Source: Amphirosellinia nigrospora
Lineage: Eukaryota > Ascomycota > Sordariomycetes > Xylariales > Xylariaceae
Assembly: GCA_004123355.1 (NCBI GenBank)
Contig: SCHM01000005.1
Span: forward strand, 1,178,001-1,242,000
Direction: 5' to 3'
Length of the DNA stretch: 64,000 bases
Positions 1 to 64,000 of this stretch are shown here, in pieces. The translations under genes were made by a program, and so were the position numbers. The notes under the pieces were generated by a model that saw only the letters and a program-made list of their open reading frames with translations, had not been told where the DNA came from and searched no databases. How positions within the stretch are numbered: the first letter of the stretch is position 1; each line of letters begins with the position of its first letter.

Positions 1-1149
1 TTGGGTAATTTGCCTTGCGTTCGGCGATCCAAGCTGCCATATCGGGGATTCTAAGGATTAACATAGTTAATACCGCAGGCGTATGTAGTTCAAGAGGTAG
101 ATAGGACTTACACTGGGGCATCTGCGCCTAAGAGGTCACTTAAACGCTTCTCCTCATCATCCAATGCACCTTCACCTTCGCTACTCTCATCCCCGGGTGT
201 CAGCCCGAGCGTGTTGATCCTGCGCTTCTTCTTTTTGCTGTGAACCGCTGCATCAGGCTTCTGAGAAGGGTTGAACCCATGCGAGGGCCTTTGATCTCGG
301 TTGCGAAACTTTTCGCCTCGATTGTTGTGCCCCCTCGACCGCCTCTATTAGAATGATTAAATCCGTCACGCCCATGGCCACCTCGGGAGTTAAAACCATG
401 GGTGCTATGTGGAGCATGTGAAGGTGTCGAATACGGGTTCTCAGGGACAGGAGAATAGTTATAGGGAGGCTGAACATAGGGTCCAGGCTGTGGGCTTGGC
501 TGGTAAGGCGGCCCATATGGGCTAGAGGCGTGAACAATACGGTCACTGTTGAGTTCAAAGCCTAGTCGCATTGCGGTTGGAGGCACAATGGAGTTCTCCG
601 ACTTGTGACCACCTCGGTCACTTTGGAATGCCCCACGACCGCCTCTGTTCGAGTACTGCTGGAACGCCGGGCCCTGCTCGGGCCAGCGCTGTGGGGGTTG
701 GTCATTTGGGTAAGCAGGATACGGAGGCCCATGAGAGGGTCTCACGGACGTGTTGGGATATTGAGATTGATATCCTTGCGCTGCTGAAGTGTTATACGGC
801 TGAGGGCTATAGCCGGTTGAATAAGCAGGGGCAACATGATGGGGAACATTCGGTTGAGGAGGATAGTGGGCTACCGCGGGCGCACTTTGCCAATGGGCAC
901 TCGCTTGAGGGGCGGTGTAATGCCCACCAGGGGGGGAAGGCGCGTAGTCCGGCTGCTGCGGATAATAGCGTGAACCTGAGCCATAATCATGCTGGCCTCG
1001 ACCTCGCCCGCCTCCTCCGTAGGGCTGTTGACCCGCTCGATGGGGGGGAGCGTTGTACGAAGGTGGTTGGTTATATGATGGGTACTGTCCTGTAGACGCT
1101 GTGGAAGTGGTCGGCGGGGGAGGGGAGGCGCATAAGGATAACTCGCCAT
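1..1149 (-). CDS. NUFIP1-domain protein (box C/D snoRNP assembly factor, Rsa1-like), 3' part cut by window edge
   Basis: Exons on the minus strand are 1149-112 and 50-1; the 61-bp intron 51-111 has a GTAAGT donor and TTAG acceptor. The N-terminal half is low complexity, rich in Pro, Tyr, Gln and Gly, with RGG boxes (SNRGGRGG). After a Lys/Arg patch (KKKKRRIN) and an acidic stretch, the second exon begins with IPDMAAWIAERKANYP, which matches the conserved NUFIP1 motif; this is the main evidence. The family works in the nucleus with the R2TP chaperone to assemble box C/D snoRNPs. The frame is broken twice, each time as if one base were missing from a homopolymer: the G run at 1116-1125 just after the start, and the C run at 330-334 in the RGG region. 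I chose the start at 1149 (MASYPYAPP) because proline-rich starts are usual here; 1204 in another frame is an alternative. Confidence 0.75.
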
Positions 1150-2174
1150 CTTCTATTCGAGAAAGGCCACCGAAATTAGAGAAATGATCGGTGTTACGAA
1201 ACAATGGAAAGCAGAATGACCTAGATCTCCCACTAAGTTAGATATGTCTGAGAATGCACTGTAAATGTAAGGTAGGTAGATTTGTTGGGGAGAATAAGAG
1301 ATAGAATAGAAGCAGGTGGTGAGTGGTTCGCTGCTGAAGCCAAAATCTTCGTCTAGTGCGCGGCGAAATAGTTTGTGTTTGCGAAGCGGGCAGAGAACAT
1401 GCAAACTGTCTCCCGAACGTTGGTCATTACCCCAGCCTCCAAGAAAGGCTTTCTCAGGTAGAAATTGTAGTTCGAGATAAATGTCGAGGTGTGAAGCTAG
1501 AAACAGCAAATTCGAATGCAGCGTGACGCGTCAAAGGAAACTGAGAGGGAGAAATCTATATGAACTGGGAAACGGGTGATAGATAGGAACATACGTATGA
1601 GAGAAAGTCAGTTGCACAGACGGGCTTCAACAACACGCTGCGAGGTCAGTGCTGCCGGACTGTGATATTGTGGCGTTTCGAAACCCGGTAGAATAAGCAA
1701 AATGACGGACCGACGCAACAGGACACCAGCAAACCGGATGACTGTGTGCAGATCCTGCTGGTGTTGCAGAACTCGAAGAAAGACGGTATGGTATTATTCC
1801 ACTTGAAGATTGTTGATGTCCTCGGGAGGATAGCGAGCCAGAGGAAAAGCCGAAGTTGACTGTTTGTAGGCTTCGAGGAAATAATGGGAAGATGCGTGGT
1901 TGATTTCAAGGTCACAGAGTGCATGTAGTTAAGCGTTGGTGGCGACTAAACCTTTCTAAGACTAGTGGTTTCAGAGTCTAATCTAAACTTAGCAAATATT
2001 ATGTAATACATACAGAGCACACTCCGGCATGAGCTCCTGCCCCACATGCCACTTTTTGGTCTTTATGGTGGGGCTGGATAATGTGCATGGACAAAGGATT
2101 GATAGCTCCAGAGACTTCAAGTTATTACCAGACATGCGTGCATCTTCGTACAGGTATAATTTCAAAATCGCAAG
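1150..2174. promoter_or_regulatory. Shared upstream region between the NUFIP1-domain gene and RPC25
   Basis: About 1 kb between two divergently transcribed genes. Small open frames on both strands (for example 1153-1509 and 1646-1924, minus) have no recognisable domain. I see no RNA gene. It should hold both promoters and 5' leaders. Confidence 0.5.
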
Positions 2175-3015
2175 ATGTTCATATTGGTCAGTATTTGCGA
2201 AACTCCGCGCATTAGCTATCGGTAATTAATAAAAAATAGACAAAGATCGCGGATCTGGTGCAGATCCCGCCGTCACAGTTCGAGCAACACAGTCGAGTGG
2301 CCATCGAGAACAACATCAACGCCAAGTACTCAAATCGCGTGATCCAGAAGATAGGTCTTTGTATCTGCATGTACGATCTCCTATGGGCGTCCGAGGGATT
2401 GATAGGACACGGCAACGGCTTCGTCAATGTGAATGGTACTGTTGGCCCGCTCCCACCTTTTACTGAGTACGGCGTCATATTACTATGCAAACTAACTCGG
2501 TTTCCCGCGGGTAGTTGAGTTCCGTATGATCGTCTTCAGACCTTTCAAGGAGAGATTCTGTTTGGCAAGATCAGCAGCGCAAGTGCGGAGGGATTACAGA
2601 GTAAGACACTATCCATCTCCCGCCATCAAAGTAGTAAAAGATTCCGGAATCGTTAACTAGCCTGACAGTACGCACAGATTTCTTTGAGGAAATCAGTGTG
2701 TCCTACAAGGAGCTACCCGAGAACACTGAGTAGTAAGTCTCTCCCTCTTTGGCTTGTTATACCGTTCAAAGCAATAACCATATACGCCTTAGCGACCATA
2801 ATGAAAAAGCCTGGATATGGGTAGTAGACGAAGAGAGGATGCACTACGACAAGAACGAGATGGTCCGCTTTCAAGTCCTCGACGAGACCTGGAATGACCA
2901 GGCGCCCGAGAGCGGGGAGCAAGAAGCCGTCGAGCGGGCCAAGAAGATCTCGCCCTACAATATCCAGGGGACCATGATGAAGGAAGGACTAGGTGTGTGT
3001 CTATGGTGGGATTGA
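2175..3015 (+). CDS. RPC25: DNA-directed RNA polymerase III subunit RPC25 (RPC8, Rpb7-like stalk subunit)
   Basis: Five exons: 2175-2186, 2240-2435, 2515-2600, 2669-2732 and 2793-3015. All introns (53, 79, 68 and 60 bp) are GT-AG. The first exon has only four codons (MFIL), followed by TKIADLVQIPPSQF, the standard start of the Rpb7_N domain. The motif GLCICMYDLLWASEGLIGHG and the C-terminal OB/SHS2-like part (DHNEKAWIWVVDEERMHYDK, ending LWWD) fit Rpc25 closely. The protein is about 193 aa; the yeast protein is 212 aa. With Rpc17 it forms the Pol III stalk used in initiation at tRNA and 5S genes. Exon 3 is one base short: the GG at 2549-2550 should be GGG, giving RPFKGEILFGKISSASAEG. With that base the coding length is 582 nt with no stop. 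The gene converges on EMC3. Confidence 0.92.
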
Positions 3016-3171
3016 TGGGTTTTCATCCTGGCTACATGTTGCCAATTTGCCCTACTTGTTGCGTCTCGCGTGGTTTTTGGGGTGGGAAAAGTATGGCATT
3101 ATCCGGCGTTTGGGGAATGGATTATTTTAATTTGCTATAGGTAAGAGGGGCAAAACCCCCCGAGCGCGACT

Positions 3172-4116: not shown

Positions 4117-4493
4117 GGGGAAGGCAGAGGGGAGGGAGGAGGGTGTTTTGCGACACTATCGATCTTCAATGTTGCGTAATTGAAGCTCTAAGCAGCAAGT
4201 AGAGGATGAGGTTGTGCTTGGGGCAAGCCTCAGTGCACCAGCCGCAATTTGCAGCTCAGGCTCGCGGGGGAGGCTGCCCCTACAAATCGAATGCCCCACA
4301 CTGACGGAACGAGCCACGTTTCTATCTACACTACACTAACTTTGGCATGCTGAGTTGCAGTCGTAGCACCTCTCATACAGAACCGAATCCCTGATCTAGA
4401 TCACCCTCAACAAAACACCAAAACACCCACCTGGCCACTTCTACGTAGCATAATAGCATAATTGACCAGGTAAAGGGAGAATAAAACACCAAA
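4117..4493. promoter_or_regulatory. Bidirectional promoter region, EMC3 / SPC2
   Basis: These 377 bp separate the start codons of two divergent ER-membrane protein genes. There is no coding signal. The SPC2 start has a good context (ACCAAAATGGC). Co-regulation of the two ER genes is possible but is inference. Confidence 0.5.
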
Positions 4494-5320: not shown

Positions 5321-5713
5321 GTTAATCATAGATAAAACTTGGTTTTTAAAAAAATGGAAAAGGCTTGATACCCTCGGCATCAAATAATGGCTTTACAATT
5401 CTCATGTGATTTGTTGACGGACGTGTTTCTGGTGGAACACGCATGTCTATCTCTCAGATCTCTATTAACCATTGATAACAATCTTGATCGAAACACATAC
5501 CCGGCCTCAAACAAATTGATTGCTCTTGTACTCTGTTGGTACCAATACTACGTTCCTTCTCCTTCAAGCAACGGGTACAGTTATGAGTGTTCCGACAATC
5601 CAGTAACGACTGGCAACATTTCCATTTCCCCTTGGGTACCACATCAACTCGACCTCCATCAATCCTTTAGCCAACGTGAGGCGAGGTCCGGATTAGCAAT
5701 GAAGATGGACAAC
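5321..5713. other. Convergent 3' intergenic region, SPC2 / MMS19
   Basis: About 390 bp holding the two 3' untranslated regions. The plus-strand open frame at 5387-5776 overlaps the MMS19 end and shows no domain. Nothing else seen. Confidence 0.5.
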
Positions 5714-8700
5714 TTAACCGAGCCCCTCCCACGCCTGTCTCGCCTTGAGTGCCGTGCGACGAATCTCCCTAACTGAGTCACCGCAAGCGGTAGCAAGGGA
5801 CGGAGGAGATCTCTGCGGTATGGTAGGAGAAGGTGGGCGTCATACCCGCTCTCGGTAAGTTGTCGAAAGAACAGCAAGGTCTTCATGCGCGTGGCGATAG
5901 GGTCGCGATCCGCAGCGCTGATATGCGAGGCTTTGGTTCGGTACTTGAGTCCCTCTCCCTGATCTACGGCGGCGTTGGGTCGAATTTCGCGGCGTCGGCT
6001 ACGTTGCGCGCCATCCCGTAAATGGCGATCAAGCCCTGAATCAGAGCCGCGAGATGGGCCCGGAGCTCGCCGGGGTCTTTTTCGAGTATCTGCGAAAGGA
6101 CTATGAGTAGAGATTCCGTCTCGACGCCTACTTTGAACGTGGATAGGGATCGGATCCCAACCCGCACGATCTGAGCTACGTCCGAGGCGTAGATGTTGTA
6201 GTCGATGTACCGCAGAATAGAAAAGACCCCCACGGAGCGATTCACTGCCTCACGTTCCTCTACATCTACACCCGCCAAGCAGCGGTCAAGAGACGGGACC
6301 ACGGTCCGGTGGTAGAACCACCCCCGGCTGAGCATTTTGTAAACCGCATGGTTGGCATCCGATAGACATTCTCGGGGCATCACCATCAAGCCTAGATTCT
6401 GCGCGAGCTGCCTACCCGCCATAATGTCCATTGGCCCGTGCAAAGTGATAAGATCAAGCAGGGGATGCGGGTGTGATCCTGGGAGTGGGCGGGCTACGTC
6501 GCCGGCAAGATAGTGTAGGACCCTGCGGAAAACTCGAGCTTCGACGTGGTATTACCAGTTGTCTGTTGAGGACCTATCGTATTACGTAGTATTGGCAAGA
6601 GTAGTCGTTGTTCTTCTAATCTTGCCACCGTCAGGGTTTCTCTGTTTTTCATATCGAATTTGTTCGATAGTACACATAATAGTGCGTCCATAGCGGCCCT
6701 TGTCGCTTTGGAAACTGGTGCCGGGCCATTTACGAAGTTGCCAATCAAATCATGGAGCGCATCTATTTGTAACTAGAATAGCGTTGTCAATTTTTTGTTC
6801 AAATAACTTAGATAGAAATTCGGAGGACAGAACTCACCTGTGTATTTATTGCCCCCGACCATAGGCCTTGCATGATGCCTAACGTCAATGGCACCGTCCG
6901 AAAATCGTTCGCAGGGCTCAGACTCTTCGGCATTGTCTCTCTCTCCGCAGAGTCACCGTCTTCCGTATGAAACAGACAAAAGGCTGCAGAATCTAGCTCG
7001 AGGGCTCTTTGCTCTTCCTCATCTAATACTCTAATCACCGACGCTGCCAATTGGCCCAGCTGATTCAAAAGGATATCTTGTCTTGAAATCAATTCGGGGT
7101 CTTCCCCATCTAGGTCTGCGCTAAGAGCCACTTCTATGCAGTCATCAGAGACAGTATCCGTGGGGTTACTGAGAGTCGTGAATCGACGATAGAGTTGCCG
7201 GACCACGAAGAGGTAGTATGCACGTCGATGTTCGGGGCCCATCTCTTCACTCTCTAGAGCCTCTATCTTTCCAGGTCGGTTGAGGTAGATTTCAGGGGCA
7301 TCGGCAGCTTCGAATTTCCAAGCAAGATTCAGAAACTGATCCCTTGTGAGCTTGGGGTAATTGGAGTCTGGCGATTGCATTAAAGCTCGCCTTATAGTTA
7401 CATGAATGGCATCGATGAAGACGACTAGAATTTTGGGGTCGGCTCTTTCGGATAACATCCATCGTAGGCCTTGTAGAAAAGAATTAATCAAGGCCGCCTC
7501 GCGAAACCAGCATGCTTCAGGTTTATACGTCTCAGAATGAATTACTGCACATAGAGTGGCAGAAACATTCCGGATTCGCAGACTCAAATCTTGCGGCTGT
7601 GGTTGTAGCTGATATGATTCTATCATAGAAGCCAAATACTGTCGGAGAATATGTTGCAATGATGGCGGACATGAGGACACCGCACTCCTTAGAGCATCTT
7701 CGCCTGCATCAAGTAGATCTCGAGGCACCATCTCCTCCGCTCTGTCAAAGTATTTTGGGCCCTCGAGAGGACAGATGATAACCGGCTTTGTGAGTAAGCT
7801 GAGAACTGTTTCACGGGTATAATCTGAACATATTGGTCGTCTTGGGCCACTCCCACTCGATTTTTGGCCAACCAGAGCACCCAATCCCTGCATGGCCTCT
7901 CGTAAAAGACCAATGTACTCGATAGGTGACGAAGCAGCAGAGTGCTCCTCCCAGAAGGGCAAGTAAAGGTCATAAAAAAGTGTATCTCCAAAAAGATCGT
8001 CTAAGAGGAAGCTCTCACCGTCATCGTGTGGGGTACACTCAGGATCTAGAACAAGAAGCAATCGTAGCTTTACTATCGAGCTCATCAAGGCTATAAGGTG
8101 TCGCTTATGTAAAATGGAAGTGTTGTCCTTCAAAGTCTTCTTGACATGCTCTAGAGCTCTAGGCATTAGCAACATAAATGGCAGGCAAGCTGAGCCGACA
8201 ATTGCGACAAGCAAACGCCCTGCCTGGGCTGTGTACTTCGCGTCCGATATGTCTTCTTTCAAATCTCTCCATGTGTTGTCTAGAAATGGCCGTAGATCCT
8301 CTCGATCAAGACGCCTAGTAAGGGCGCATAAGACTGTGAGAGTGGCCTTGACAATATCTTGTATCTCGCCGTTACGAACCTCATACTTTAGTGAGCCCCA
8401 TACTTGATCTGCGTAAGGTACGACGCTCTGTTTAGGATGATTATACTTGGTGAGACATGCTTCTAGAGTAAGCAAGATATCTACCTTGACCGCGACTGTT
8501 TGATCAACCTTGTCTAGCTTATCAACGAGAAATGGAATAGAAAGACCGGCTACACAGTGGTGTGCACAGAAGCAAGAACGAAGCGCCGCCTTCAAGCTAT
8601 CGGTTGTTACAGCTGAGGGTGTTGCCGAAGGTCTAAGGGAGATGGGGAAATAGGCGGAGAACGTCTTGAAGATTTCGGATATGACATCGGCTGATGGGTG

Positions 8701-9410
8701 AAATTCTTGCAAGAACAATGTCAGAATGGCAAACCACATCATCAAATTCTCGGGGTCTCGCTCGTTTCGGCATAAGCTTAAGAGGTCAAGAATAAATCCG
8801 CCCGTCTGACCATGCCGAAGTTCCAGATCTTTGGCCACAGCAGGGATTTCCAAAAGATCGGAGAAGAGATGATAGATCTCTAAGCGCGTTGCGGGGACTT
8901 GCAATTTGAAGTCGTCGCCTAGTTTACAAATGCTTTGTAGGATATCGCCGCCAAGTGTGGGCTGAAAGTATTTTGTCCCAACGAGCTGTCTCAAAGCCTT
9001 GGCGGACGCGGTGATACCAGCCTTATGATCACTCTCAAATAGCGAACAGAAGAAGGTGACAAGTAGTTTAACCTGGTCGGCATTCAAGGTATCGTTCTTT
9101 CTTGAGAGAATGTGTAGCGTGCCAGCGAGGAAGTCTAGCGCAGTAGCCCGGGATATGAGATCGTCCTCGCCGGAAGATTGCATCCATCGGGATACAGATG
9201 CGACCCATTGGCCAACAGTGGCCCTCTTGTTGGTAGACTCTTCAATGGCTGATGGGTGATGAGCACGTACTCACGAACAAAAAAAAGAAGGAAGGATCGA
9301 AACTCACCTTGGGCTGCTTGCTCTAAAATTGCCTGACGCTTGTCTTGTTCATCCCTGTCCGCAAGCACATATTTCAGAGCCAGCTCATCAAACCTGGGAG
9401 CCGCAGCCAT
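5714..9410 (-). CDS. MET18: MMS19/MET18, HEAT-repeat subunit of the cytosolic iron-sulfur assembly targeting complex
   Basis: Exons 9410-9308, 9239-6838 and 6772-5714; introns 9240-9307 and 6773-6837 are GT-AG. With three missing bases counted the product is about 1188 aa, near the usual family size. Mms19 brings Fe-S clusters to DNA polymerases, helicases such as XPD/Rad3 and other nuclear enzymes, and so affects repair and telomeres. The N-terminal MMS19 block is clear (ALDFLAGTLHIL, then DQVKLLVTFFCSLFESDHK), followed by long alpha-helical HEAT repeats in an uninterrupted 2.4-kb exon. The C-terminal HEAT block continues with LQIDALHDLIGNFVNGP, LLPYRRDLLR and an Arg/Lys-rich end (KARQAWEGLG). 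Frame breaks lie at A4 6529-6532, T3 5985-5987 and G3 5797-5799, each one base short. The last 110 codons depend on two of these repairs and are the least certain part. Confidence 0.85.
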
Positions 9411-12689: not shown

Positions 12690-15600
12690 ATGAGCGCCTC
12701 GCAGCTCCCTAAGCTCCCAGCCGCTCATGATGAGCTGGTCAACTACATCGCGGAACGCCCTGATACGTCCATGGCCGAGCTAATGGAGCCGTATCGCAAA
12801 TTCGAGGCCAAACTACGTGAGGTGTACGCCAGGAGCGTAATAATCCAATTCTTGATGAATCCATACTTCAATGTTCTGCCGTTGTTCACCAAAGACACCC
12901 CGGCCATTCGAACTAGGGCTCGCAACCTAGATGATGAACCTCAGGAACAGAAAGACAAATATATCATGCCCCTTCCTGATGACAAGCGCCGTCCTCATGG
13001 TTCACCTGCTGTCGTGGAATCCCTCAAAGAGTTTCGTTACAACTTTGGGGTTTTCTCTGAATCGTCCCTAGCTGAAATGGATTGGGACAATGTTGTCGCC
13101 GCCGGGTCGTCTGTCGTCAATTGTCTTCTTCCAGTACCTCCTGAGTATAAGAAGTCGAAGCGAGCTTTGCGCCAATATTACCGTACGTGGATACATCGCA
13201 ATCAATTTCTTGGGTATTTGTGTGACTGCTTCTCGGGCAGTAGGGGAGAGAGGTTGGCTGACTTCGTCTTTTAGATGAGAAGTTTTGTCCAGCGTCTGAT
13301 GTTGACCTTTTCCTGTACGGGCTCAACGAAGAGCAAGCTGTCCAGAAGATCAAGGATATAGAGACTCGCATCCGGGATGCTATTCTCTCCGAGGTTACTG
13401 TCGTTAGAACCAAGAACGCCATCACTATCTGTAGGTTTCCAACTCCGTCAAGGTAGCAACGCAACAGCTAAAGTTTCATTAAAAGGCAGCCAATACCCGA
13501 CTCGTCACGTTCAGGTACTCTTTCTATCCTTGTTGTTATTTCTTATGCTCACAGGTTTAGATCGTTCTACGGGTTTATAAATCCGTCTCCGAGATTCTTA
13601 CTGGGTTTGACATCGACTGCTCCGGTGCGGCATATGACGGAAAGCAAGTCTACACTACACCTCGAGCTTTGGCATCCTATATTACTCAAATCAATCCAAT
13701 TGATCTCAGCCGTAGAAGTCCTTCATATGAGAATCGACTATCCAAGTATAGTCACAGGAACTTCGAGGTTTATTGGCCCGAGCTTGACCGCTCTCGCGTG
13801 GACCCCACAATCTATGAACGGAGCTTCCAGAGAACCCTCGGTCTGGCGAGGTTGCTAGTTCTTGAGAGATTGCCCACCACAAATGCTCGCGAGGAGTATC
13901 TGAAGAAGAGACGAGAGGAGCGGGGACGGCCAGAGTTGGTTAATCGCTTCCAGTACCGCCTCTACGGCAACATAAAGGATGTCAGTCCAACTTTCTAGGC
14001 CACAAGTCTTGACTGGTTTCAATCAGCTTAACAGCTACCACTACAGTTGCTAACACAATGTGCCAGAATCATGAAGACGAAGTTGCGGATTGGGTTGATG
14101 AGAGCGAAGTCTCCAATTACCACACCTTCACTGTTCCATATGGAGTAAAGTTCCATGCGAAGAAGATCGAAAAGCTTTGTTACACTAAGGACTTGTGTAA
14201 GTTTTTTTCTTTTTTATACCACTTCATTCCCTGATCACATTCCCGCTATTCGGAAATCTATAGTGCATATGGGCTAACTCGCAACAGTACTCAACGCCGA
14301 ATGGAACCAACCTAAAGAGCGGGAGGTTTACTGTAAGTGATTCTCGAAATCGTTTCCCTCTTATGTTGGCCCTTGTAAAGGCATTTACTCCTTCTCTTCG
14401 GGTCAAAACCACATCTAGAGCCTTTCCTGCTCTTTCATGGCCCATAGTTCACGTTATAAATGACGAAGACTAATGCTGGGTGGTGCATAGTGCATAGACA
14501 TCCTGCATTCTTTGGGCGGGTTGAGGACGTAAGTTTACTAAGGGGTTTTCGTAATGCACAGTATCTGACAACCTCTTCCAGGTGCTCGGCGATTGCTGTG
14601 GTACATGCCCGAAACCTCAGACTCCCGAGGAGATTGAAGTCGCTGAAAAGGAGAGCGAAATCTACGTCTCGGGAAATGCGACTTTCCGCATTGAGGACCC
14701 GGGAAGACAGGCAAGTGGTTCTACCTATTAGAAATATCGATTTACTAATATTGCAAATTTAACCGAGGACGATTGGACGGAGATGGCGTATGTTGGCAAT
14801 ACTGCTCGTCTTTGCCAAGCTATCGTCGATGAGGATCTAGAACACGTTGAAGACTGGCTGTCGCAAGAAGGTGCTGATCCTAATCAACGGGATTACACCG
14901 GGAGAACGCCACTGCACTTGGCTGTGATAAGTTCCAGTCCGGCTATCGTCAAATGCTTGGTAGATCATGGTGCACGACTAATTGCCCGGATTGCCGACGG
15001 ACGAACTGCGCTCCATCTTGCTGCGGCGCGTGGCAATGTCGAAATGGTCAAAATTCTCCTCGAAAAGAGTAATGCAAATGAAGAGGAGGAAGAGGAACGA
15101 CAAGATCAGCGGCGTAAAGCCCGCGAAGAGGCTTCCCACGCCGAAACTAAGTCTGCGTCGCCTGGCGGTGATAGTGACGAGGAAGACGAGGAAGATGGCG
15201 AGCTTATCGACGACTCGTCTTCTGATGACGAAGTTCAATCTATGGCACAGGATCGTTTGTCAAGGTTGATAACAAAGATGCTCCCGAGGCTATCCCACTT
15301 GATGATGACCAGGTGAGTATAACTAATTATGAGGCTCGGGATTCTAGGCAGAGCATTGCCCAAGTTGCGGGTCCTAGTCTGGATGATAAGATTGTGTCGA
15401 GCTAACTAAACTGTGCACAACCAGAATGACCCGGACTTCTATAAGATTGATGCTGTCGCATGGGATTCAAAATGCTCTGCGTTTCATCTAGCTATTCTTG
15501 GTGGCCATTGCGATGTAGTCAAGTTGCTGTGTCAAGAGTTTGGTGCTGATCCACTACTGCCCATTAAAATTGGCGATGGATCATACAACGCCCCCAACGC

Positions 15601-18600
15601 CGCCATACTCACACTCGTTCTTGCTCTTGCACTTCCAGTTGACAAAGCGGTTCGGATGTGTGAGACACTCTTGAGTCTTGGAGCTACCTCTTCGCAGGCC
15701 GATATCAACGGGATAACAGGATTCCATCGTTATGTCCAGGTGAGTAATTCATTCAAGAGGGTATGTTTGTGCCACTGACATGGCATGCCGCGCAGAATGG
15801 CGATATAAAAGCTATCGAATGTCTATGGGAGAATGATAAGCTTGGCCTCAAGACAGCTATTAACCACGTAGCTGTGACTGGCTCTTCTTGGAGTTCTAAT
15901 GCTACCAGCCCTCTCATGACTGCTATCGATGAATCAAATCCAATACTTGTGCTCAAGCTACTTGAAGCGGGCGCCAGGCCAGATATCGACTTCGATAGCT
16001 GGCTGCAAGGTGCAAAGTTTTCCTTTGAAAACCAGCTTGGTGTAAGCTCCTCTCCAGCCTTTCCGTGTCTCATACTAGCCTTCTAGTTCGAAAACCTGGG
16101 AGTATTTTCTATCCCTTCATTTCCTTTTCTTTGTTCCTTTTAATCCAGACAAGACATCAAGGGGAGCTTGCATCTCAGTCGTTTGCTAACTCAAACTATC
16201 AGGACTTCAATTCGAATCAAATTAAATTCGAGGATGGAACGGAACAGCCTCTTCTGCTGGCTATACGATCCCCACAGCCAGCAATGGCATTGGAGCTTCT
16301 CGAGAGAGGAGCCAACCCCAACTCATTGACAAAAGCAAGTTGGAATGTGGTCCGCAATGAGTGGTCACGTCGTTACAACAGCGGCGAGACTGGTCTTGAC
16401 CTTGTGCGAAAGCTTCTGCGCGACTTACGTAAGTATGAAGGGGAGCGAGGCACAGTCAGACAGCAGAGCAATCTCTTCGGGCAAGGAAACTCCGATCAGG
16501 AATCTACTGCCGAAGAACCGCGTGGGGCGACAGAGTTTCTCTCCCAGTTCCCGACGGGCACATAGTAAGTAGTCGGTTTTATTCTATTGGATTACTTTAT
16601 GATCGGTTTGCGGCTATTTGGCCACCCCGAATACTTTTCGGGTGGGGGTTGACGCCTCTAAAAGTATTTTCAAATAGCGATTGCTAATCCGAGCGTTGTA
16701 GTAAACATTGGCTTGTATCCGTTGATATCAAAGCAAAGATGGAGGTCTACAAGAAAAACTTGGATTTCAACAAGAAAGAAGAGGACAGAATCGCTTCTCT
16801 CAAAGGTCTTCCTGAAAAGAAAGAGGCTATACAAGATCTCATCTCGCAGTTGGAGAAAGTCGAAAACACTCTCTTAGAGAAAGGTGCCAAGACCTTCAAA
16901 GAATTATATCCCGACATAGAGGTCACAGCACAGACCCAAAATAACGGCAATGAAAAAAACAAAGCCAGACTGACTACAGCCTACCGTTTACCTTCAAGGG
17001 TGTTAAAGATCTCACCTCGAGCCGGAATGATGCGTATTTGGAACTGTAAGTAATGCCATTAATATGGCCACTAGTCTTATAATTTTGACTGTAAGTGCTA
17101 AAAATGTTTAGCTTCGAAGCAGCTTGGGCTGGCGATCTGGAACGGATCAAATCGCTCACACTGGCACCTTGGGGGCCCGACGAAACGGAACCACCGTTGC
17201 AGATAGCAGTATCAGATTCAGAAAGCAACAATCCATTCTCGCTTGCGTTCCTCAAGGGTCACTTTGAGGTAGCGAAAGCTATCCTTGAAATTGCACAAGC
17301 ACAGTGGTCACCGACCGAAGAGGAAAAGGCCCGATTCACGATGGATATCAATGATGAATCCTATGAAGAATCGGATGAAAGCGACAGCGACAGCGAACCT
17401 GAGATCTATAAGGAGATCATCAACGATCAGTTCACTATTGACAATATCGGCCAGATATCTATGCAGGTTAAAAGCACTGTTTTGCCTTCGTCTGTCATCA
17501 GCTGGTTTGCCCCGGCTTTCGTCGTACATGGCGACAAGGCCGCGACCACTGGTCTTTGTACTCAGAATCTTCTCACTTTTGCAATGATCCAGAACGATAG
17601 CCATCGGTTTACTTTCCTTTTAGACATGCACACTCGTTTCGCAAGCCACCGACCAGATAATGATGAAGATGAGTCCAGCAAGTTTTACACCTTCCCTGAA
17701 ATTGAGTTTGATCATGCGATTCGAATGGGCCGGACCAATATGCTTGCTGAGGTTATTCGACGAACCGGAGCCGGCATCCCGCTCGAAGACCTTGTGAAGA
17801 AGAGCGGAACAGAGATGAAAGTCAAACCTCGATACTACCAGGGCTTAACAGTCTACGGCAAGAAGAGAGCTGACTGGGCCAAGGCCGGCCGTAATCTTGT
17901 GGTCAAGCCTACGGGTAGCAAGGTTCCACCATTGCTCACAGCCGCCATGAGAGGCTCCCTTGAATCTGTTGAATGGTTTTTGGGAGATGCACCAATGAGA
18001 CATTATCGAGAGTTCGGTACATCTAAGGTCGCTAGAGAAGATCCTAGACTGAAGCACCTAAACGAATCACCTGGTGGGTTCGATCGAGCCATCACCAAAT
18101 GGCTTGGTATTCAGAGTAAGTTGGTCTCCACGAGTCAAGTTATGTTGCTAAAAATATCTAGATGATTTCGTCATTCACTGTGCCGTGCTAGGTCCACTTG
18201 GAGATAGCACCAATAAACTCATCGAGTATCTAATCAAGGTCTGCCCGGCATCTTTTGAAGCCAAATCCGACCTAGGTTACAGCCCGCTATACCTTGCCTG
18301 CCTCATGGGCAGGGTCCAGTTCGCTAAAACGCTGATTGAAGCTGGGGCCGACCAATCAGTCAAAGACAAGGAGTTCAATAACATCATACATGCTTGTCTT
18401 ACAAACCGACCAAAGCATGATCAACTCCAAAAAATGCTTGAATTGTTCGATCCCGACTTGAGGACTCATATGTTCCGTCAACGAAATAACCTCTCTTTCG
18501 GGGGTGATACCCCTCTTCATTTCTGGTTGAAGCACGCCAATGTGCTCAATTATACCTGGAACTACTCGAGTCGCGGTTCTCGCAAATTCTGAACGACGAG

Positions 18601-25667: not shown

Positions 25668-26980
25668 ATGGCTAACATCAAATTCGAAGGCTGGTTAGGC
25701 CACAACCCTGAATCGGCGAATGGCAAGATGGAATGGGGCTCATTTGAACCTAAGAAATGGACCGAGGACGATGTTGATATCGAAATCTCTCATTGCGGGA
25801 TCTGCGGTTCTGACCTCCATGTGCTACGTTCCGGCTGGTTTCCCACCAAATACCGTAAGTGCTCTCTCAACATCGATTCTTCTGGATGGTGATATTAACC
25901 GTCAGTAGCTTGCTGTGTTGGTCATGAAATCGTCGGCAAGGCCGTGCGTGTTGGTAGCAATGTAAAGCATGTCAAGGTGGGCGATCGAGTCGGTGTAGGC
26001 GCGCAAGCCCGAACCTGTCAGCAGCCGGATTGCCCCGAATGCTCCTCTGGCCACGACTCGTATTGCCAACGCCTCATGGTCAATACATACGACTCCTTGT
26101 TTCCCAACAACGAGGGCAAGTCATATGGCGGGTACTCAGATTATAACCGAACAAACCAACAATTCGTAGTTCATATCCCGGATGGATTGAGCTCAGCAGC
26201 CGCGGCACCTATGCTGTGCGGCGGCGTCACAGTATACTCACCATTGAGCGAAACGGGGTTGGCCCTGGGAAGAGTGTCGGAATTGTTGGAGTTGGTGGAC
26301 TTGGACACTTTGGTGTTCTGTTCGCCAAGGCCATGGGCGCCGACAAAGTTCTGGGCATTTCAAGGAAGAACGCCAAGAGAGATGATGTCCTGAAGCTTGG
26401 GGCGGACGAATACATTGCCACTGATGAGGACGAGGACTGGCACAAGAAGCACGCTCGAAGCTGTAAGTCCCCGAATTTCCCGTGGCCTGGGTTATTTTTG
26501 TCTCTCTTCCATACGAGCTGTGTTATTAATCCTGTCTGCAGTGGATGTTATCGTGAGTACGGTTAGCAGTGCCAATATGCCATTAACGAAATATCTCGGT
26601 CTCCTGAAGAGAGGAGGAGAATTTGTCCAAGTAGGGTGAGTTGGTTGAACTAAGATGCCAATTTCCACAATCAGAATCGCGATTTCGAGAGGTAACTAAC
26701 CTAGAACTAGGGCCGCTGATGGAGGCGAATTTCCCCAAGTCAATATCTTCACGCTACTCAGTGGTGGAGTTAAGATAGTTGGCAGCTCTACTGGCGCCCG
26801 TGGGAGATCAAACAAATGCTGCAACTGGCAGCGGATAAGAAGATCAAGCCCTGGATTGAGGAGCGCCCGCTGAAGGAGGCCAACCAGGTCATCCAAGACA
26901 TGAATGAGGGAAAGGCGCGATATAGATACGTGCTGGTGAACGAGAACTTTGAGAAGCATGACACTTCATCCAAGCTGTGA
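25668..26980 (+). CDS. Zinc-dependent alcohol dehydrogenase of the cinnamyl alcohol dehydrogenase (ADH6/ADH7) type
   Basis: Exons 25668-25854, 25909-26462, 26542-26635 and 26711-26980; introns 54, 79 and 75 bp. With two bases restored the length is 1107 nt, 368 aa. Catalytic-zinc ligands lie in CGICGSDLH and GHEIVG; the four-cysteine structural-zinc loop is CQQPDCPECSSGHDSYC. The Rossmann motif is GIVGVGGLGHFG. The family reduces aliphatic and aromatic aldehydes, usually with NADPH, in the cytosol. Breaks: one A missing at 26247 (restores SPLKRNGVGPGKSV) and one G missing at G3 26802-26804 (restores GARGEIKQMLQLAADKKIKP). The second intron acceptor was chosen at 26541 to keep ARSLDVIVSTVSS. 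Confidence 0.9.
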
Positions 26981-29249: not shown

Positions 29250-29658
29250 CTACTGCTGGCCAGCTTTGAATTCCTGGTACAGCCGTCCAACAGCCTTGCG
29301 GCCTTCATTGCTGCCTCGAATCCACTCCTCCGGTGTGAACAGGTCGAATAGCCCGACTTTATTGAGGAGCGGTAGCGCAGCTTTGAAGCTAGTCTCCAGC
29401 GTCTCGGTCTTGGCCGTGTCGCCGGCTGCATGTGCTGTATTGTAGGCCCGGATATTGACTAGGAGAGCTCTGGGTTCGGAGACGAGGGTTAGTGTGGGTG
29501 AAGAGGAGCAATGAGTAGCATGCATTACCGACGACGGTCCCGGTTTGCACTTTGCTGCCGTCCGGAAGCGTGATTTCTGGGAACTTGGCACCCAGTGTGG
29601 TCGAGTTTAGGTCCGAGAGGGCGCTGCCGCTGGCGGAATTGGGGGTTTGTGATGCCAT
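29250..29658 (-). CDS. Small conserved fungal protein of unknown function (possibly DUF7709 type)
   Basis: Exons 29658-29529 and 29467-29250 with a 61-bp intron (GTAATG donor; acceptor AG at 29469-29468) give 348 nt, 115 aa. The N-terminus is Ser/Thr-rich; then come LPDGSKVQTGTV, ALLVNIRAYN and a helical C-terminal half (LETSFKAALPLLNKVGLFDL, then FTPEEWIRGSNEGRKAVGRL). There is no signal peptide or membrane segment. I remember this arrangement from small ascomycete proteins of 100-120 aa but know no function, and the DUF number is from memory. The nearby TAG after CCCAG rules out the acceptor two bases upstream. Confidence 0.7.
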
Positions 29659-40036: not shown

Positions 40037-43000
40037 ATGGCTGGGCCGAACTTGACGGGGACGGTTTCACCCGCTGTCGAGTTAATACAGTCGTTCCCCT
40101 CATCGTCCTCGTCCTCGTCCACGCCCTCGTCCACGCCCTCGTCGTCATTGCCATCGTACGAGCATTCCTCGCCCCAGGCAGAGCCGCCTTCCGCTACCCA
40201 CACCCGTGCGCCGCCCTCGTCGTCTCACTCTCCTTCGTGGACCGACAAGACCCTGCCCGACCCCCCTGCCTACGCCGTACCGGCCATCGATTTCGATGTC
40301 AACACCGATGTCGATTTCAATACCACGTTAGCATTTGTCCCCGACCCGTCGTCCGAGCATTCCAATGAGCAGTCCACGGGTACTCCCACTCACCATTCCC
40401 TTTCGGCTTTGCGGCCTCGGACTGAAAGCATGGGCAGGAGGAAATCCATGATGCTCGGTCGTCCGCAGTCGTGGATGCCCACATCTAAATCGACTCAGGA
40501 CTTGGGGTATCTCCCTCGTGTCGAGGCCGAGGAGAAGACGGGTAGCCAAGCGGGCAATGCATCTCTCTCTCCAGCTTCGGCCATTCAGAACGGGTCTCGG
40601 AGCGTCTCTAGCTCATTCGCCTCTTTTGCCAGACGCTCCTGGAGCTCGACTTCACGATCACCATCGCCGGATATGAGACCAGAAACTGCCCAAGCACCTG
40701 AAGAGCGAACTGGCCGAGCACGCGCTCCAAGCAATAGTTCAATCATGAAACTCAGAAAAGGCTCGCGGAATCGGTCTGGTTCGTCTTCTAGTGAAAGTAG
40801 TCGGTCGAATGAATCTTTGGCCAAGATTGGTAATTATTTGAGCAAGATCAAAGCCCGACCTCAGCTCACGCGCACAAAGGGCACCGTGCCAAGTGAGCTA
40901 GAGAGTTCGGCGTCTTCAACGACGAGCCTGGCGCCGCCGTCCACCGACACACGCAAGTCACATGCCTCTGAGACAAGCAATAGCACATTCCACGACGATG
41001 TTCCGGGTGCTAGAAACTCTTGCAGCCCGAGATCCGCTCTGGTCGCATTTCAAGAGTCTCGAGGCAGATTTTCAGCGGTTTCAGTCCAAGCCCACAGCAT
41101 TGAAGTTAAATTTGGTCCGTACTTCTCTGGTGCCTTTCCTCCGAAAACTGGCCTCTCATTCTTCCTATCTAAATCTCCATGACGAGGACCTGGAACGTAG
41201 GACGATCATTCTCAACAAGTGGTGGACTGGCCTCCTCGATATGCTCCATGTCCGAACCCACCCGCCTGTCCCGGAGTCGATCGACCAATATTGCTCGATG
41301 CCGTGAGTATTATTATGATGCGTCCCGAATGGCGACAGAGCACCCCGACATTCCGGCCGTTGGCCGAGCGAAACCTCCAAGACCACGCTCGCCAGAGGTC
41401 TCACACCGACTCAAATGGGTCGACGAATTCATTGCAATCAACTGATTCAGCTTATCTTGCGGAGTCGACAGGACACAATGTTCGAAATATGTTTATCGCG
41501 AACTTGATGTCTCAAGTGGCATTGGTCGTGGAGAAATTGTCTATCAGGAATGCCCCTCATAGTCTCGTCAATTTCGCCGGCAAAGCCTGTGCTTACGCAT
41601 TCTTTTTTGTCCCGGGCATTGCAGATATACTTGTTCGATTGTGGTCGTTGACTCGGGTTCTCTGCGGCGCGTGGCTGAGGAATTCAAGCTTCCTCGGCGG
41701 TGCAGAAGCGAAAGTGATGATATTGTTGCTCTCTTCCCTCCTGGAGTGCAGAAGCTAGGCTGGACTTCTGTCACTCAAATGTGTAATGCTCTTCGGAAAC
41801 CTGCACAACTGCCTTTGGCCTCGACCAAAATATCTTGGACTGGGCCCTGGGTAGCGAGATGGAATGGCCGCGACACTGATTTATTCTTCGTTTTCTGCAA
41901 ATACTACTTCATCCTCGCCGAAGACTTCATGCCCCCTAAGTTGCCCCTTACGGAGAAGGCACGTGCCCCGGGGTTCGTGCTTGTCAATGCGCAGATACTC
42001 TCTGTACTTGACTCAACACTACATCGCCAAGCAGCTACCGGGTCAACGTCGGTCCCCCGCTTTCGGACGCCTTCCATGAAGAAGATGCGTCGGCTATGGC
42101 GTTACAGATAGCACCGAGTAATAGCAATATCTTGAGAGGAATGGCCGAGAATAGGCTCATTGTCTTATTAAAGAATATGTTATCTGATACATCTCTGCTG
42201 TTCATAGGCGCGCGGTATACCTTTGGCGAGTCATTCCTAGCTGTGATGAAGGCGGCTATCAAACACACCTCGCAATTCAATCACAATGCATGTTTCATGA
42301 TTTGCGATTTCCTTGAAGAGGCGTTGGCCATTTACGAAATTTTTGTTGGTTCCTGCACGCAGCCATTGAATGTTGATTGGCCCTTCTGGTTTGATGTTTG
42401 GAAGAAGATTCTGGATTCAAATAATTCCATGTCCGAAATCCGGATTCTTTCTCTGATCTTTTCGCTCTGGGACACAATCGCGGTTGATCAGAGCCGCAAA
42501 GAGGCTATCTGTATGGACTGGCTCCTTACTGAAGAAACTTTTGACAAACTGTTTAACAACTGGTGCCCTATGGTTCGTGCCTACTATATGCGACTCTTGT
42601 GTTGGCGAATTTGCAGAGATGCTGGAAATGCCAATGATTCCGACACGTAAGCCAGTATCTATATTTGACATCGGTTTAATGCTAATAGTTCGCAGAGGCA
42701 TATTTTCACTCGTTTTTACTCGATTGAAGACAGTCTGGAGCCATTATCTCTGGTTAAAGCAAGATGTAGAGAAGGAAGGAAAAGTTCCACCGTCCACGGC
42801 GCCTTCGTTTCCCACCCGGGAAAGCGATTTATGATTATCAGGATGGAAGTTCCAACTATACAGCCGGGTTTTAGAGCGGGATTTGACTCTTCACTTACTT
42901 TCCCAAGACAAGATTTGATAGATGCCCCCCCTACGGACTTCGACTCGATGAACACCTTTGATCCAGAAGTTACCAATGGTACGGCAAAGAAAACTTGGTC

Positions 43001-50380: not shown

Positions 50381-50412
50381 TGCCTATCCATTACGTCTTG
50401 CAACCAAGCTAC

Positions 50413-59379: not shown

Positions 59380-62320
59380 TCAGCCGAGCTCTTTCCGGAT
59401 CAATGTCGTCTCTTCCACGAGCCAGACTCGAAGCCGAGTATTCGCCCCGTATCTTACGAAAATTCTGAATAACTCTTTGCAGAAGTCTTCGCGAGCTCCG
59501 TGGTTTGTTTGGCTTCGTATCACAGCAATCATTAAAGCACCCCACATTGTCCGTTTAACTGGATGCGCAAGAAAGAGAATCTGATTCGGGTCCATTCCAT
59601 GCTCGAAAAATATAGCAAGAGCATTTAATGTTTCTTTCTCGTGAGCCATAGGTGCGCGCCTAAGCGACCCCAAGCGATCGGTAATGGCTGAGAACCAGCA
59701 CCCCTTGCCATTAAAAGCCTGGTTGATATTCGCTCCATGAGACAGCAAAAGAGGCAGGGATAGGGTAAGAAATTGGGGGTCCAGGATGCCTAATTCTACA
59801 GGATTGTGTAAGCCTTCCGCATATTTGAGGGCATAGCGATCAAGGAACTTCTGGAAGGCGGTCGAGCCCGGCAAACCGTCATTTGGGGCGGCGCCGTGAT
59901 TCAAAAGCAGCTTTAGAACCCTAACCGCGTTGTGAAGGCTAACCGGATCTGCAGGGACAACAGTGAAATTAGGAACAAAAGATAGGGCTAGGGCATGACC
60001 GTTATCTTGCCTCACCATGGAAGGGTTCCTGGCTAGGACATGGTCAATATACGATACGAGCCCGGCTTGAATTGCCTTACCCACCAAACCTCTCCGACCA
60101 GAGCAATAGCCAGAGTGTCAAATTCAGGGTAAGATCTATTCATGTCATCCAACAGTCGTATGTCGTTTGCTCCACGCTCGATCTCAATATTTCGAGCCCA
60201 AAACATAAAACTGTCCAGTTCCTTCCCATTTAAACTTTTTGGGAATACCCTTGTCTGGGCAAGTAGGGCTTTGCAGGCGTGGGTATTGACATCAAAAGAA
60301 GGACCGCAATTTTGGGCGAACAAATCTTGCATTTCCTTCTCCATCAAGTAGTCTCGTACCGTACGATGTAAGAAGTCGACATTCTTAAATTCAGGAAACT
60401 TCGGGGCCTCCAATAGCCCCTTATATCTACCATTCAATTGACGGCGAACTCTGGCTTCTTCGTCATGCAATTCGTAAATATCGGGCCAATAAAAAGCGGT
60501 GGGATCATCCTCATCCAAAAACCGGTACTGGATGAGTTGGAGTGGTTCGGGGGCGTGGAGAGCGACTTGGAATGTAGCGCTCATCCTCTTCCGATACACC
60601 TTATCGACGGATGTAATTAAACGCTTGAAGAATTCGCCTAGATCAGATGGAAGCTCTCTTAGGCGCTCTTGAAGTAACTTTGGATTGTCTCCGTTCGTCA
60701 TCCCATCTCGCAGAGATCGTATGACGAGATGTACCCATAGGAAAACTCCCTCCGCCCTCCAAACAATCTCTTCGACGAGCCCCTGGTGGGCTGACGGATT
60801 GTATCCATGCAAGATAGAACTTGCGCTCTCTTCTAGCTTGCTATGGGCGAAGTTGGCAATATCTTCCATAGTAAGGTCCTGTAGATAAAGCTTCCGACGA
60901 GGATCTCGGCCAAAGGCATCTTCAAAGCAATTCCATGGCCGGCTAGACACGCAAAGCTTTACGTCTTCCAACTGTGAAACTGTTTGGATCGTCTCGATTA
61001 GGTCGAAGTGGTCGCCGTTATATTCATCCAAACCATCAATGAAAAAGCAGATTTTATGTGATGATGAAGTATGGGTTTTAATGTCCTTCAGCCGGTCAAA
61101 TGCTCCAAGTAGTTCAGGTACCGTCCAAGCCCGATCTGTTAAGCGGACCCAACGATCTGGACAAATGGTTGGAATCAAGTCTTGAAACCCACGCAGAATT
61201 TCGAAAAGTAGCTGTCGTAGTAGGCCTTGCTGGGATTTTTGGAGCTCCGACCCAGATATCCAAAAATAGAATGTAGGAATAGCAAGCCGAGAGCCGCCCG
61301 CCCAAACCTCGAGACACTCTCGTGTCTGCGCACTTGTGCTCAGATATTTCATTAGGGTCGATTTGCCGGAGCCAGGTTTTCCAGAGATCCAATAAACTCC
61401 GTCTTCATGTAATAACCACTGCCGGAATTCGATATTGGAGCGACGATCAGATTCCGGCCAATGTTGCGGCGTGAAAATCCACCGAAATGTAGTTTTATGA
61501 GCGTCGACGATCGAGGATTCTCGGGCATGCATGTGCTCGAAAGATAACCCAGTCAGAATTGTATGTTCTTTTTTTATCTTCACCGCTTCAGATTTCATGG
61601 CAGAGAAACTTTCGGCAATCTCATCGAGTCTCGACCCAGTGACATTTCCGCTTGTTTCCACAGGAAATAATAGATCTCTCTTCAACGACTCGATTTTGGC
61701 ACTCAAGCCTACTTCCACTGAGCTCGAAAGTTGATTCAAGTCTCTTAGAATCTGAGTTTGCTGCTTGCTGATTAGGCCTTCGTTAGTTTCTAAATGCTGA
61801 GATCAAGCCGCGCACTATATGCGCAAGGTATCAATGTCTGATTGCTTGCGACACTTCCAAAGGAGAGCGTGACAGGAGCAGCGAACCTGATATGTGCCAA
61901 GATGTGTGTAGACAGCTGACTGCGCATGTCGCCCAATCTCCTAACAAGTTGGTCAATCTTATTCTTGCTCCATGATCCCTCCAGGGCCTGCCGAATACTA
62001 GCCCATCGACGGTGTCGACCCGGCTTTTTGAGATTCTGGATGCATGAAATCAACTCTTGAGCAGTATCTTTGCATAACGCTGCTACCTTGCGGATCTCTT
62101 CTTCATCCGGCACAAGTTTAATTGACGAAGGTGGAGCTACCAGTTTGTCGCTGAGTGCTGACAAGCTAACTGCGATTGTTTCAAAGTCCGCATGTTGTGC
62201 CGATGCACCCCTGGCGGAGTGGATTATCTCTTGAGATTCAGAGAGTATCCTATATGCGTAATCGAGGAATTGGATAATATTTGCAGCTAGGCCAATAGCC
62301 GACAATACTTCAAGTACCAT
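59380..62320 (-). CDS. NACHT-type NOD-like receptor with C-terminal ankyrin-like repeats
   Basis: Exons 62320-61887 and 61796-59380 with a 90-bp intron; two restored bases give 2853 nt, 950 aa. The N-terminal 145 residues (MVLEVLSAIGLAANIIQFLD) match the fungal STAND N-terminal helical domain. The NTPase has a P-loop ISGKPGSGKSTLMKYL near residue 283, Walker B CFFIDGLDEY and sensor VKLCVSSRPWNCF, then LYLQDLTMEDIANFAHSKL and GVFLWVHLVIRSLRDGM, typical of NACHT proteins with the DUF7791 helical region (VDFLHRTVRDYL). The last 230 residues carry about four ankyrin-like units (LKLLLNHGAAPND, LPLLLSHGANINQ, IFFEHGMDPNQ, FVRYGANTRL). Such proteins act in fungal non-self recognition and cell death. 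Breaks: A3 61792-61794 just after the intron and C2 60089-60090, each one base short. Confidence 0.88.
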
Positions 62321-62674
62321 TTTGCCAAACGAGCCGGACGGAAAGTTTACTATGTGTTGAACGGTTGCCGCGGTTTAATACAAGTAGCTTGCTTTCTAGA
62401 GTTGGTGTTAAAAATAACCTGCTGTCCGGAAAGTCTTAGAAGGGGAATCGGGAATACGAGATTCGGGTAGTTGGGCACCAAACCAATGAGTAGGCTGCCT
62501 TGAGCTGCCTAGGCATACTTTGATTAATTGATAGTTTTGGACGGTACAAGGCACTTTTTCACTTTCTCCAATTTCACTTCACAACCACCTAAGCCACGAT
62601 GCCCATGCTGCAGAGGGTGGTGCAGCCAGCTGACCGGCACGTTATTATGGGGTGCTAATGCACTAATTGTTATA
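62321..62674. promoter_or_regulatory. Upstream region of the NACHT gene, adjoining the tRNA
   Basis: 354 bp between the NACHT start and the tRNA. No coding signal. It is rich in pyrimidine tracts near 62560-62580. Confidence 0.45.
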
Positions 62675-62746
62675 GCCCGCTTGGCTCACCGGTAGAGCGC
62701 CTCACTAGTAATGAGGAGGCAACTGGTTCGACTCCAGTAGTGGGCA
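62675..62746 (+). tRNA. tRNA-Thr (anticodon AGT), no intron
   Basis: 72 nt. The acceptor stem pairs GCCCGCT with AGTGGGC (one G-U). The D arm is GCTC/GAGC and contains the A box TGGCTCACCGGT. The anticodon stem CCTCA/TGAGG encloses the loop CTAGTAA with anticodon AGT. The T arm ACTGG/CCAGT contains the B box GGTTCGACTCC. The discriminator is A. CCA is not encoded, as usual in eukaryotes. Confidence 0.95.
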
Positions 62747-62752
62747 TACATA

Positions 62753-62765
62753 TTTTCTCTTTTTT
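62753..62765 (+). terminator. RNA polymerase III terminator of tRNA-Thr
   Basis: T4 at 62753-62756 and T6 at 62760-62765, starting seven bases after the tRNA. Confidence 0.8.
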
Positions 62766-63043
62766 ATACCTGTATACCTCGAGTACTTAGGCAAGTGTTA
62801 AACTGAATTGTCTTAAGAGGTAATGGGCAACAACCTTGAAATGTATACAAGCCAAGTGTTAGGTATGATTTATATTATTTTATTTATCAAATATTGCATA
62901 GTTTTTACGCTAGGTGAGGAATTCACATTCGATACTTTTAAGGAGGGTCAATTGGTACCTACGTACCTAATACCTAAGTCCGATGTTAAAATGATAAAAT
63001 TAGGATTTACATTACATTCGAAGATGTTCTCCTCTACTCGGTG

Positions 63044-64000
63044 TCAGTTCTTTCTCTGCCTGGCCGCTTTTGCGACAATCGCATCCCGCTCTCAGCACTA
63101 TACACTCAGCAGCAACGAACTTGTCGGCTGTAGATTCGTAGCCTTAACGAAAGCGTCATGTAGTAGAAGGGTGCCTGTTCCCAGAGCAAGTCAAGGAATG
63201 TTGGGCCATCCGTGCCGGGAGAGCTGATTCCTGAGACCGGCACGTCGTAGTTAGGCAAGCCATCGTTGCGCTTGCGATTCAGCACCCCTGTGGTGATTGT
63301 ACCGAATACAACCATTGGCTCAAGCGTCGAAAATATGACGAGACGATTGCGAGTCGCCAATGTAGTATGGTTCGCGCAGTCAAGCTGCCATTTGTAACCT
63401 TGAAGGTAGGGTCACCGGCGGCCGAGATTCCAGTCTGCTTGATCGCTGCTTTCGAGTAATCGCCATCTCGCTTCAAATACTGGTAGAGGGATAGCCATAG
63501 TATCCGTCATTAGCACTGTTCGGCTTGCCGCAAGCTGTAGCACCACCGGCCCCACATGATAGTCTGTGTATCTGGACGATCTATCGCGCGCTCGATGCGT
63601 ATGCTAAATGGCATGTTTATTTCAATACATCACCCTTCTTCCATGTTCGGCTCAGGGTCAGATAACTTCCAGGTTGCGCTACTTCGTCCGTCTGAGCTTG
63701 TCCGTTGATCGCGACGTTGAAGCCTTACGGGCCAGCGGGCACACGTGTTTGATGTCCAGGACCTGACCCGTGACGGTGAGTTTGCGCTGTCACCGCGTGG
63801 GAGGTGGTTTCTGCTTAACTACGAACTTTCTCCGCAGGTAAGGTAGATGTGGATGTACAGGTTGACCCAAAGCGCAGATCCGTCTGCCGAGCGTAAGTAA
63901 ACAGTCTCCTGGTACTTAGTGTGGCTCTCCATTCCGGTGCCACCGCAGCAGGTGCGCGGTATTGCCAAAATCGCGCGGTGTTCTGGGTGAGCTGAAGTAA
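63044..64000 (-). CDS. Glycoside hydrolase family 127 (DUF1680) beta-L-arabinofuranosidase, 5' part beyond the right edge, frame disrupted
   Basis: The stop is at 63046-63044, ending ERDAIVAKAARQRKN. Going upstream on the minus strand: DGLPNYDVPVSGISSPGTDG and PTFLDLLWEQAPF with VVFGTITTGVLNRKR before them, then TIMWGPVVL and MPFSIRIERA near 63610, and TCCGGTGMESHTKYQETVYL near 63950. These are the conserved C-terminal half of GH127. The Cys-Cys doublet corresponds, as I recall, to the zinc/nucleophile cysteines of the bacterial enzyme. GH127 removes beta-L-arabinofuranose from plant glycoproteins or pectin side chains. At least four frame shifts occur between 63044 and 64000, so exact codons are not assigned and introns cannot be separated from errors. 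The catalytic N-terminal barrel lies mostly outside the window. Confidence 0.75.

Follow-up and report, generated by a model that had tools for sequence, protein, structure and literature searches.

Frame breaks of the kind examined here have already been published as a defect of fungal genomes assembled from nanopore reads alone (PMC7500977). In nanopore-only assemblies of Drechmeria coniospora, gene prediction before correction yielded full-length models for fewer than one-sixth of 305 conserved genes, short reads enabled the lengths of same-base runs to be corrected, and PacBio-only fungal assemblies are, according to the same report, free of this problem (PMC7500977). Nine assemblies of Rosellinia necatrix, produced from R9.4.1 data with Canu at 35–52x, had BUSCO values of 68.2–82.5%, and the main text of that report does not contain the word "polish" (PMC10796067). 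The paper on Homopolish describes the residual errors of nanopore sequences as mainly homopolymer indels that shift reading frames (PMC8011154), and the same problem underlies recommendations on the depth and polishing of nanopore assemblies of fungi (PMC9453082). Here, we analyzed the frame breaks in a stretch of 64,000 nucleotides from Amphirosellinia nigrospora (hereafter the window; bases 1178001–1242000 of contig SCHM01000005.1 in assembly GCA_004123355.1) and in the assembly to which it belongs, which comprises 48.1 Mb in 11 contigs, the longest of 13.8 Mb. Known here from the assembled letters, the frame breaks are, with a probability of roughly 96%, consensus errors of a long-read assembly and not part of the DNA of the organism. 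This reading is based on the genome-wide spread of the breaks, the base losses in 5S ribosomal RNA (rRNA) genes, the concentration of those losses in same-base runs, the net bias of the frame changes toward −1, and the fact that conserved families are hit.

All of the evidence came from assembled letters, and finished Escherichia coli sequence served as the control. Shifts were called de novo with a frame model that combines codon statistics with intron states and shift states, and for which the window and 17 sampled stretches served as training data; 20 stretches of 10 kb had been sampled, and three with a G+C content of 42% or less (L010, L019, and L020) were dropped before modeling. In 50 kb of the E. 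coli control, the model called 12 shifts, each no more than 28 bases from an annotated gene border, and none inside genes over 45 kb of coding sequence. Because all 12 of these calls sit at gene borders, false calls within genes are rare where introns are absent. When single-base losses were planted, the model recovered, to within 90 bases, 43 of the 50 placed in E. coli and 32 of the 45 placed in the window. The weaknesses of the model in the window were two introns that were taken for shifts and one break, in the gene for the RNA polymerase III subunit RPC25, that was overlooked. For chosen stretches of the window, open-frame pieces of at least 50 codons were also listed, and 80 of these pieces were scanned against Pfam.

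A genome-wide profile search for chaperonins, HSP70, and proteasome subunits gave 34 loci with 32.4 kb of matched sequence; a table of 143 kinase matches was kept out of the family counts. For each pair of neighboring matches, we computed how many bases exceed those required by the profile, which separates introns from frame breaks. At 18 junctions, in 13 of the 34 loci, the domain went on in another frame, and the excess was not of intron size. The excess lay between −4 and +4 at 16 of these junctions (exactly −1 at 10) and was −31 and 38 at the other two, values that reflect ragged ends of the profiles or might mask a short intron. The net frame change was −1 at 13 of the 18 junctions and +1 or −2 at the remaining five, and the break rate was 0.56 per kb matched. 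Four breaks, in CCT3, CCT6, HSP70, and CCT4, were placed to approximately 1–3 codons by two frames meeting on one solved chain. Another 17 junctions were intron-sized, with an excess of 52–152 bases; at one of them (contig 1, 13.07 Mb), the joined matches overlap, and a break could be concealed there. In the sampled stretches, the frame model called 38 shifts in 59.6 kb of coding sequence (0.64 per kb), with 14 of the 17 stretches affected and single-stretch rates ranging from 0 to 2.1 per kb. The calls for the window and the sample together comprised 37 losses and 18 gains, intron miscalls included. The frame breaks are genome-wide and are not a peculiarity of the window.

Among the 13 affected loci are 6 of the 10 for chaperonins, 5 of the 10 for HSP70, and 2 of the 14 for proteasome subunits. 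The reading given in a preliminary description of the window implies that essential genes should be struck, and the chaperonin loci bear this out; subunits of the cytosolic chaperonin are essential in yeast. True mutation offers another reading, in which the affected genes are real pseudogenes that arose by slippage in same-base runs. Slippage in runs is a known type of mutation, single genes such as the ankyrin, HET, and NACHT genes of the window could be true pseudogenes, and one sampled stretch, L022 (1–10000; contig 8, 0.4 Mb), has an unusually high density of shifts. This is the densest stretch of all: its 5.8 kb of coding sequence carries 12 shifts, of which 7 are losses and 5 are gains, and the stretch could contain a real decayed gene or element in addition to errors. 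However, the breaks affect chaperonin, HSP70, and proteasome loci simultaneously, and not dispensable genes only, which makes pseudogenes very unlikely as the general explanation. The genes considered here are most likely intact in the living cell.

The most decisive evidence came from the 5S rRNA genes, a gauge that is independent of translation. A search for 5S rRNA found 33 copies, of which the 20 within two mismatches of the nearest reference copy were counted and the other 13 were left out; these 20 include the four reference copies, which were chosen because they are full-length. Bases were lost in 10 of these 20 near-identical copies. Single-base losses numbered 14, and 13 of them fell in runs of at least three, which occupy only 22 of the 120 bases (p = 3e−9 if the losses are independent); most of the lost bases (12 of 14) were C or G. 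The same copies also show one 2-base loss, one 3-base loss, and two 1-base gains. Counted by hand, 7 of 19 copies have a shortened C5 run and 2 of 19 a shortened G4 run. If G/C runs in coding sequence lose bases in these proportions, 0.76 losses per kb would be expected, compared with the observed 0.56 (homology), 0.53 (model, window), and 0.64 (model, sample). The prediction from the 5S genes is near the observed coding rate, and one error source can explain both the 5S losses and the coding frame breaks. Furthermore, copies L027, L028, L029, L037, and L041 are otherwise identical to copy L023 over the gene and differ from it in run length alone, which again speaks against true mutations. A second sequence group, consisting of copies L038, L039, L040, L042, and L049, differs from the main group at many positions; the dispersed 5S genes of this genome are of more than one type.

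The 5S results also bear on two explanations in which the bases are truly missing from the DNA. In the first, genome-wide programmed ribosomal frameshifting would carry translation across the breaks, as in the ciliate Euplotes, in which the shift takes place at a stop codon that is preceded by a slippery codon. The proteins do resume beyond the break in conserved genes, as this explanation demands, and the five junctions with a net change of +1 or −2 are compatible with it. However, 5S rRNA is not translated and yet loses bases in the same way, which speaks against programmed frameshifting. At nine chaperonin junctions, moreover, the old frame stays open for 6–330 bases beyond the matched stretch, so the shifts generally do not lie at a stop codon, unlike those of Euplotes; at three of the nine junctions, the distance is less than 10 bases, which, taken singly, would be compatible with a shift at a stop codon. 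No shared motif was apparent by eye among 14 junction sequences. We therefore consider frameshifting extremely improbable. In the second explanation, nuclear insertional RNA editing in the style of Physarum mitochondria would act on messenger RNA and 5S rRNA and restore bases that the DNA truly lacks. Such editing would cover the proteins and 5S rRNA together, and the preponderance of C and G among the single-base 5S losses is in keeping with it. Against it, a base that is missing from one 5S copy is present in another that is nearly identical, and the 5S losses track runs, as base-calling errors do. No nucleotide-insertion editing of fungal nuclear genes is known to us (no literature search aimed at it was made), and we give editing as slight a chance as frameshifting.

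Several results weigh against attributing the frame breaks to consensus error. When the mismatch limit for 5S copies was relaxed to eight (26 copies), only 15 of 22 single-base losses fell in runs of at least three; the related copies L038–L040 have one loss in common, which may be a real variant; and 5S genes can also vary naturally. The sample rate may still include intron miscalls, and L022 alone contributes 12 of the 38 calls, leaving 26 shifts in 53.8 kb without that stretch. A run test was applied to 14 of the 18 family junctions, and G/C runs of at least three were not enriched there (7 observed versus 6.2 expected; p = 0.43), nor were A/T runs of at least three (3 versus 4.9 expected). 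Finally, AT-rich stretches contain long A/T runs, so the truncation of runs is not uniform. The test at the protein junctions is blurred because the loss of a base itself shortens the run that remains. The mean longest run at the 14 junctions was slightly higher than expected (3.43 versus 2.87; p = 0.011), and, among the breaks placed precisely, that in HSP70 falls in a C run and that in CCT4 lies at an A run. The link to homopolymers is clear in the 5S genes and weak at the protein junctions. Accordingly, the statement in the preliminary description that nearly all breaks are homopolymer losses finds little support at the 14 protein junctions.

Run-length spectra were not used as evidence, because long A/T runs seemed scarcer in the window than in the sample only on account of four AT-rich stretches. 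Two of the sampled stretches are extreme in composition: L020 (1–10000; contig 6, 5.0 Mb) has a G+C content of 5.6% and L019 (1–10000; contig 6, 3.0 Mb) one of 11.2%, both much lower than in the other sampled stretches. L020 contains many short overlapping AT repeats, with no dominant single array among the repeats listed. The AT-rich DNA of L019 and L020 is possibly centromeric or composed of mutated repeats.

In the consensus-error explanation that we favor, a long-read assembly that was insufficiently corrected would have dropped single bases, sometimes two or more, and sometimes gained one, with same-base runs, including G and C runs, at the highest risk of loss. The error would affect coding and structural-RNA sequence alike across the genome, and presumably intergenic sequence as well; where a base was lost within a gene, the protein would carry on in another frame. 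The reading of an unpolished long-read consensus, already proposed for the window, gains support from the wide distribution of the breaks and from the damage to both the untranslated 5S genes and the conserved chaperonin loci. The use of long reads, the platform (nanopore or another), and the lack of a correction step are inferred, and we would expect accurate reads to restore the bases.

In the window itself, the frame model assigned 31.8 kb to coding sequence and called 17 shifts there (0.53 per kb), of which 12 were losses and 5 were gains. The calls at 4949 (SPC2) and 10562 (MTD1) were dropped because the Pfam coordinates leave an intron-sized excess at both junctions (64 and 61 bases, respectively), and 15 shifts stand after their removal (0.47 per kb). 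The true number is probably above 15, because the model recovers only part of the planted losses. Judged against the E. coli control, the frame breaks in the window exceed chance. The single-base breaks in many genes that had been described from the letters are therefore present, but the total of at least 35 given with them was not reproduced, and the proposed rate of near one per kilobase of coding DNA is higher than the measured value of about 0.5–0.6 per kb. When introns are assigned to SPC2 and MTD1, the seven genes described as intact are all free of shift calls. The frame breaks of the window are as follows.

203..344, minus strand: frame break in the NUFIP1 region; model call at 286; the open frames 203–1237 and 111–344 overlap.
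2496..2653, plus strand: frame break in RPC25; matches in different frames on both sides.
5964..6249, minus strand: frame break in the C-terminal part of MMS19; model call at 5965; the open frame 5662–6249 follows 5967–6551.
6497..6551, minus strand: frame break in MMS19; model call at 6509; the open frames 6497–6772 and 5967–6551 overlap; contains the A run 6529–6532.
9138..9270, minus strand: frame break near the start of the MMS19 gene; model call at 9185; MMS19_N in 6811–9270 (E = 1.5e−53).
15229..15313, plus strand: frame break in the ankyrin gene; model call at 15234; Ank repeats in 14732–15313.
16029..16083, plus strand: frame break in the ankyrin gene; model call at 16044; weak Ank matches on both sides.
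18531..18589, plus strand: gain-like frame break in the ankyrin gene; model call at 18572; Ank in 18152–18589 and none in 18531–19190.
26147..26390, plus strand: frame break in the alcohol dehydrogenase (ADH) gene; model call at 26314; ADH_N in 25899–26390 and ADH_zinc_N in 26147–26563, in another frame.
29392..29606, minus strand: gain-like break in an unnamed coding stretch; model call at 29486; the open frames 29392–29703 and 29253–29606 overlap.
40902..41179, plus strand: gain-like frame break in the DUF1765 gene; model call at 41002; DUF1765 lies downstream at 42012–42647.
41201..41303, plus strand: frame break in the DUF1765 gene; model call at 41286; no Pfam family in 41201–41755.
41563..41755, plus strand: frame break in the DUF1765 gene; model call at 41641; no Pfam family in 41563–42108.
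42012..42108, plus strand: frame break in the DUF1765 gene; model call at 42013; the open frames 41563–42108 and 42012–42647 overlap; contains the C run 42054–42058.
60036..60117, minus strand: frame break in the NACHT gene; model call at 60050; NPHP3_N, NACHT, and DUF7791 in 60036–61802, and a weak Ank match in 59383–60117.
61790..61802, minus strand: break between the SesA and NACHT parts of the NACHT gene; model call at 61791; SesA in 61793–62374; the open frames overlap by 10 bases.

Seven of the 15 genes that the preliminary description lists as broken have independent support for a break (the NUFIP1 region, by one model call, RPC25, MMS19, the ankyrin gene, ADH, DUF1765, and NACHT); four others have partial support, and four have none. 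For RPC25, the stretch before the break (2240–2515) matches the Rpc25/RPC8 chains strongly and also SHS2_Rpb7-N, the stretch after it (2519–2653) matches an rpc8 chain weakly in another frame (E = 0.31), and a region farther on (2737–3012) strongly matches RNA_pol_Rbc25; the frame model calls no shift at this break. The MMS19_C match in 5967–6551 has an E-value of 2.2e−6, yet it is under the curated cut-off. The DUF1765 domain in the open frame 42012–42647 has an E-value of 6e−44. In the NUFIP1 region, the Pfam scan of both pieces (203–1237 and 111–344) returned no family. The partly supported genes are those for the carboxypeptidase, the 2OG oxygenase, HET, and SDR, in each of which the scanned pieces yielded only an incomplete domain. 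For the MFS gene, the model gives three introns and no shift. For the GH88 gene, there is no model shift and no Pfam family at an E-value of 0.05. The PPPY protein, which was put at 50.4–51.4 kb from a PPPY motif, has two model segments without a shift and was not among the pieces of the Pfam scan. For GH127, no Pfam family was found in six minus-strand pieces of 63.1–64.0 kb, the plus-strand pieces being outside the scan. Four runs had been singled out as sites of the breaks: at the runs 6529–6532 and 42054–42058, two long open frames do overlap across the run, and the model calls a shift close by (6509 and 42013, respectively); the letters of the runs 16953–16959 and 44903–44907 are as described, but the model calls no shift at either.

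Several other features of the window were observed. The open frame 35293–36708 (472 codons), without a Pfam match at an E-value of 0.05, is probably the gene that had been described as GH88. The coding-like stretch at 29250–29658 on the minus strand, with the shift call at 29486, had no counterpart among the genes described previously. In the gene at 59383–62374, SesA occupies the N terminus and is joined by an NPHP3_N/NACHT part, by DUF7791, and by a weak match to ankyrin; this is the layout of fungal NLR-like proteins. A tRNA-Thr gene (62675–62746) adjoins it. Pfam domains seen in the window pieces include HET, SesA-NACHT, and Fungal_trans, a content that would suggest a filamentous ascomycete.

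Gene predictions from this assembly would be fragmented, and gene models, pseudogene counts, claims of missing genes, and evolutionary rates derived from the uncorrected assembly would be wrong. Dispersed near-identical 5S rRNA genes constitute an internal gauge of run-length errors that needs neither reads nor a sister genome, and here this gauge predicts the rate of coding frame breaks within a factor of approximately 1.5 (0.76 versus 0.53–0.64 per kb).

Compared with the known systems, the present assembly departs from the description in the Homopolish paper in that the link to runs is weak at the protein junctions (PMC8011154). The Rosellinia necatrix genomes, at 48–50 Mb, are comparable in size to the 48.1 Mb here, and their longest contig is 7.1 Mb, compared with 13.8 Mb here (PMC10796067). 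In Drechmeria coniospora, polishing is reported to have added more gains than losses, unlike the direction seen here, where 13 of 18 junctions have a net change of −1 (PMC7500977). As described in that report, Drechmeria coniospora too is a filamentous ascomycete with a highly contiguous assembly and with frame breaks that come from run-length errors (PMC7500977).

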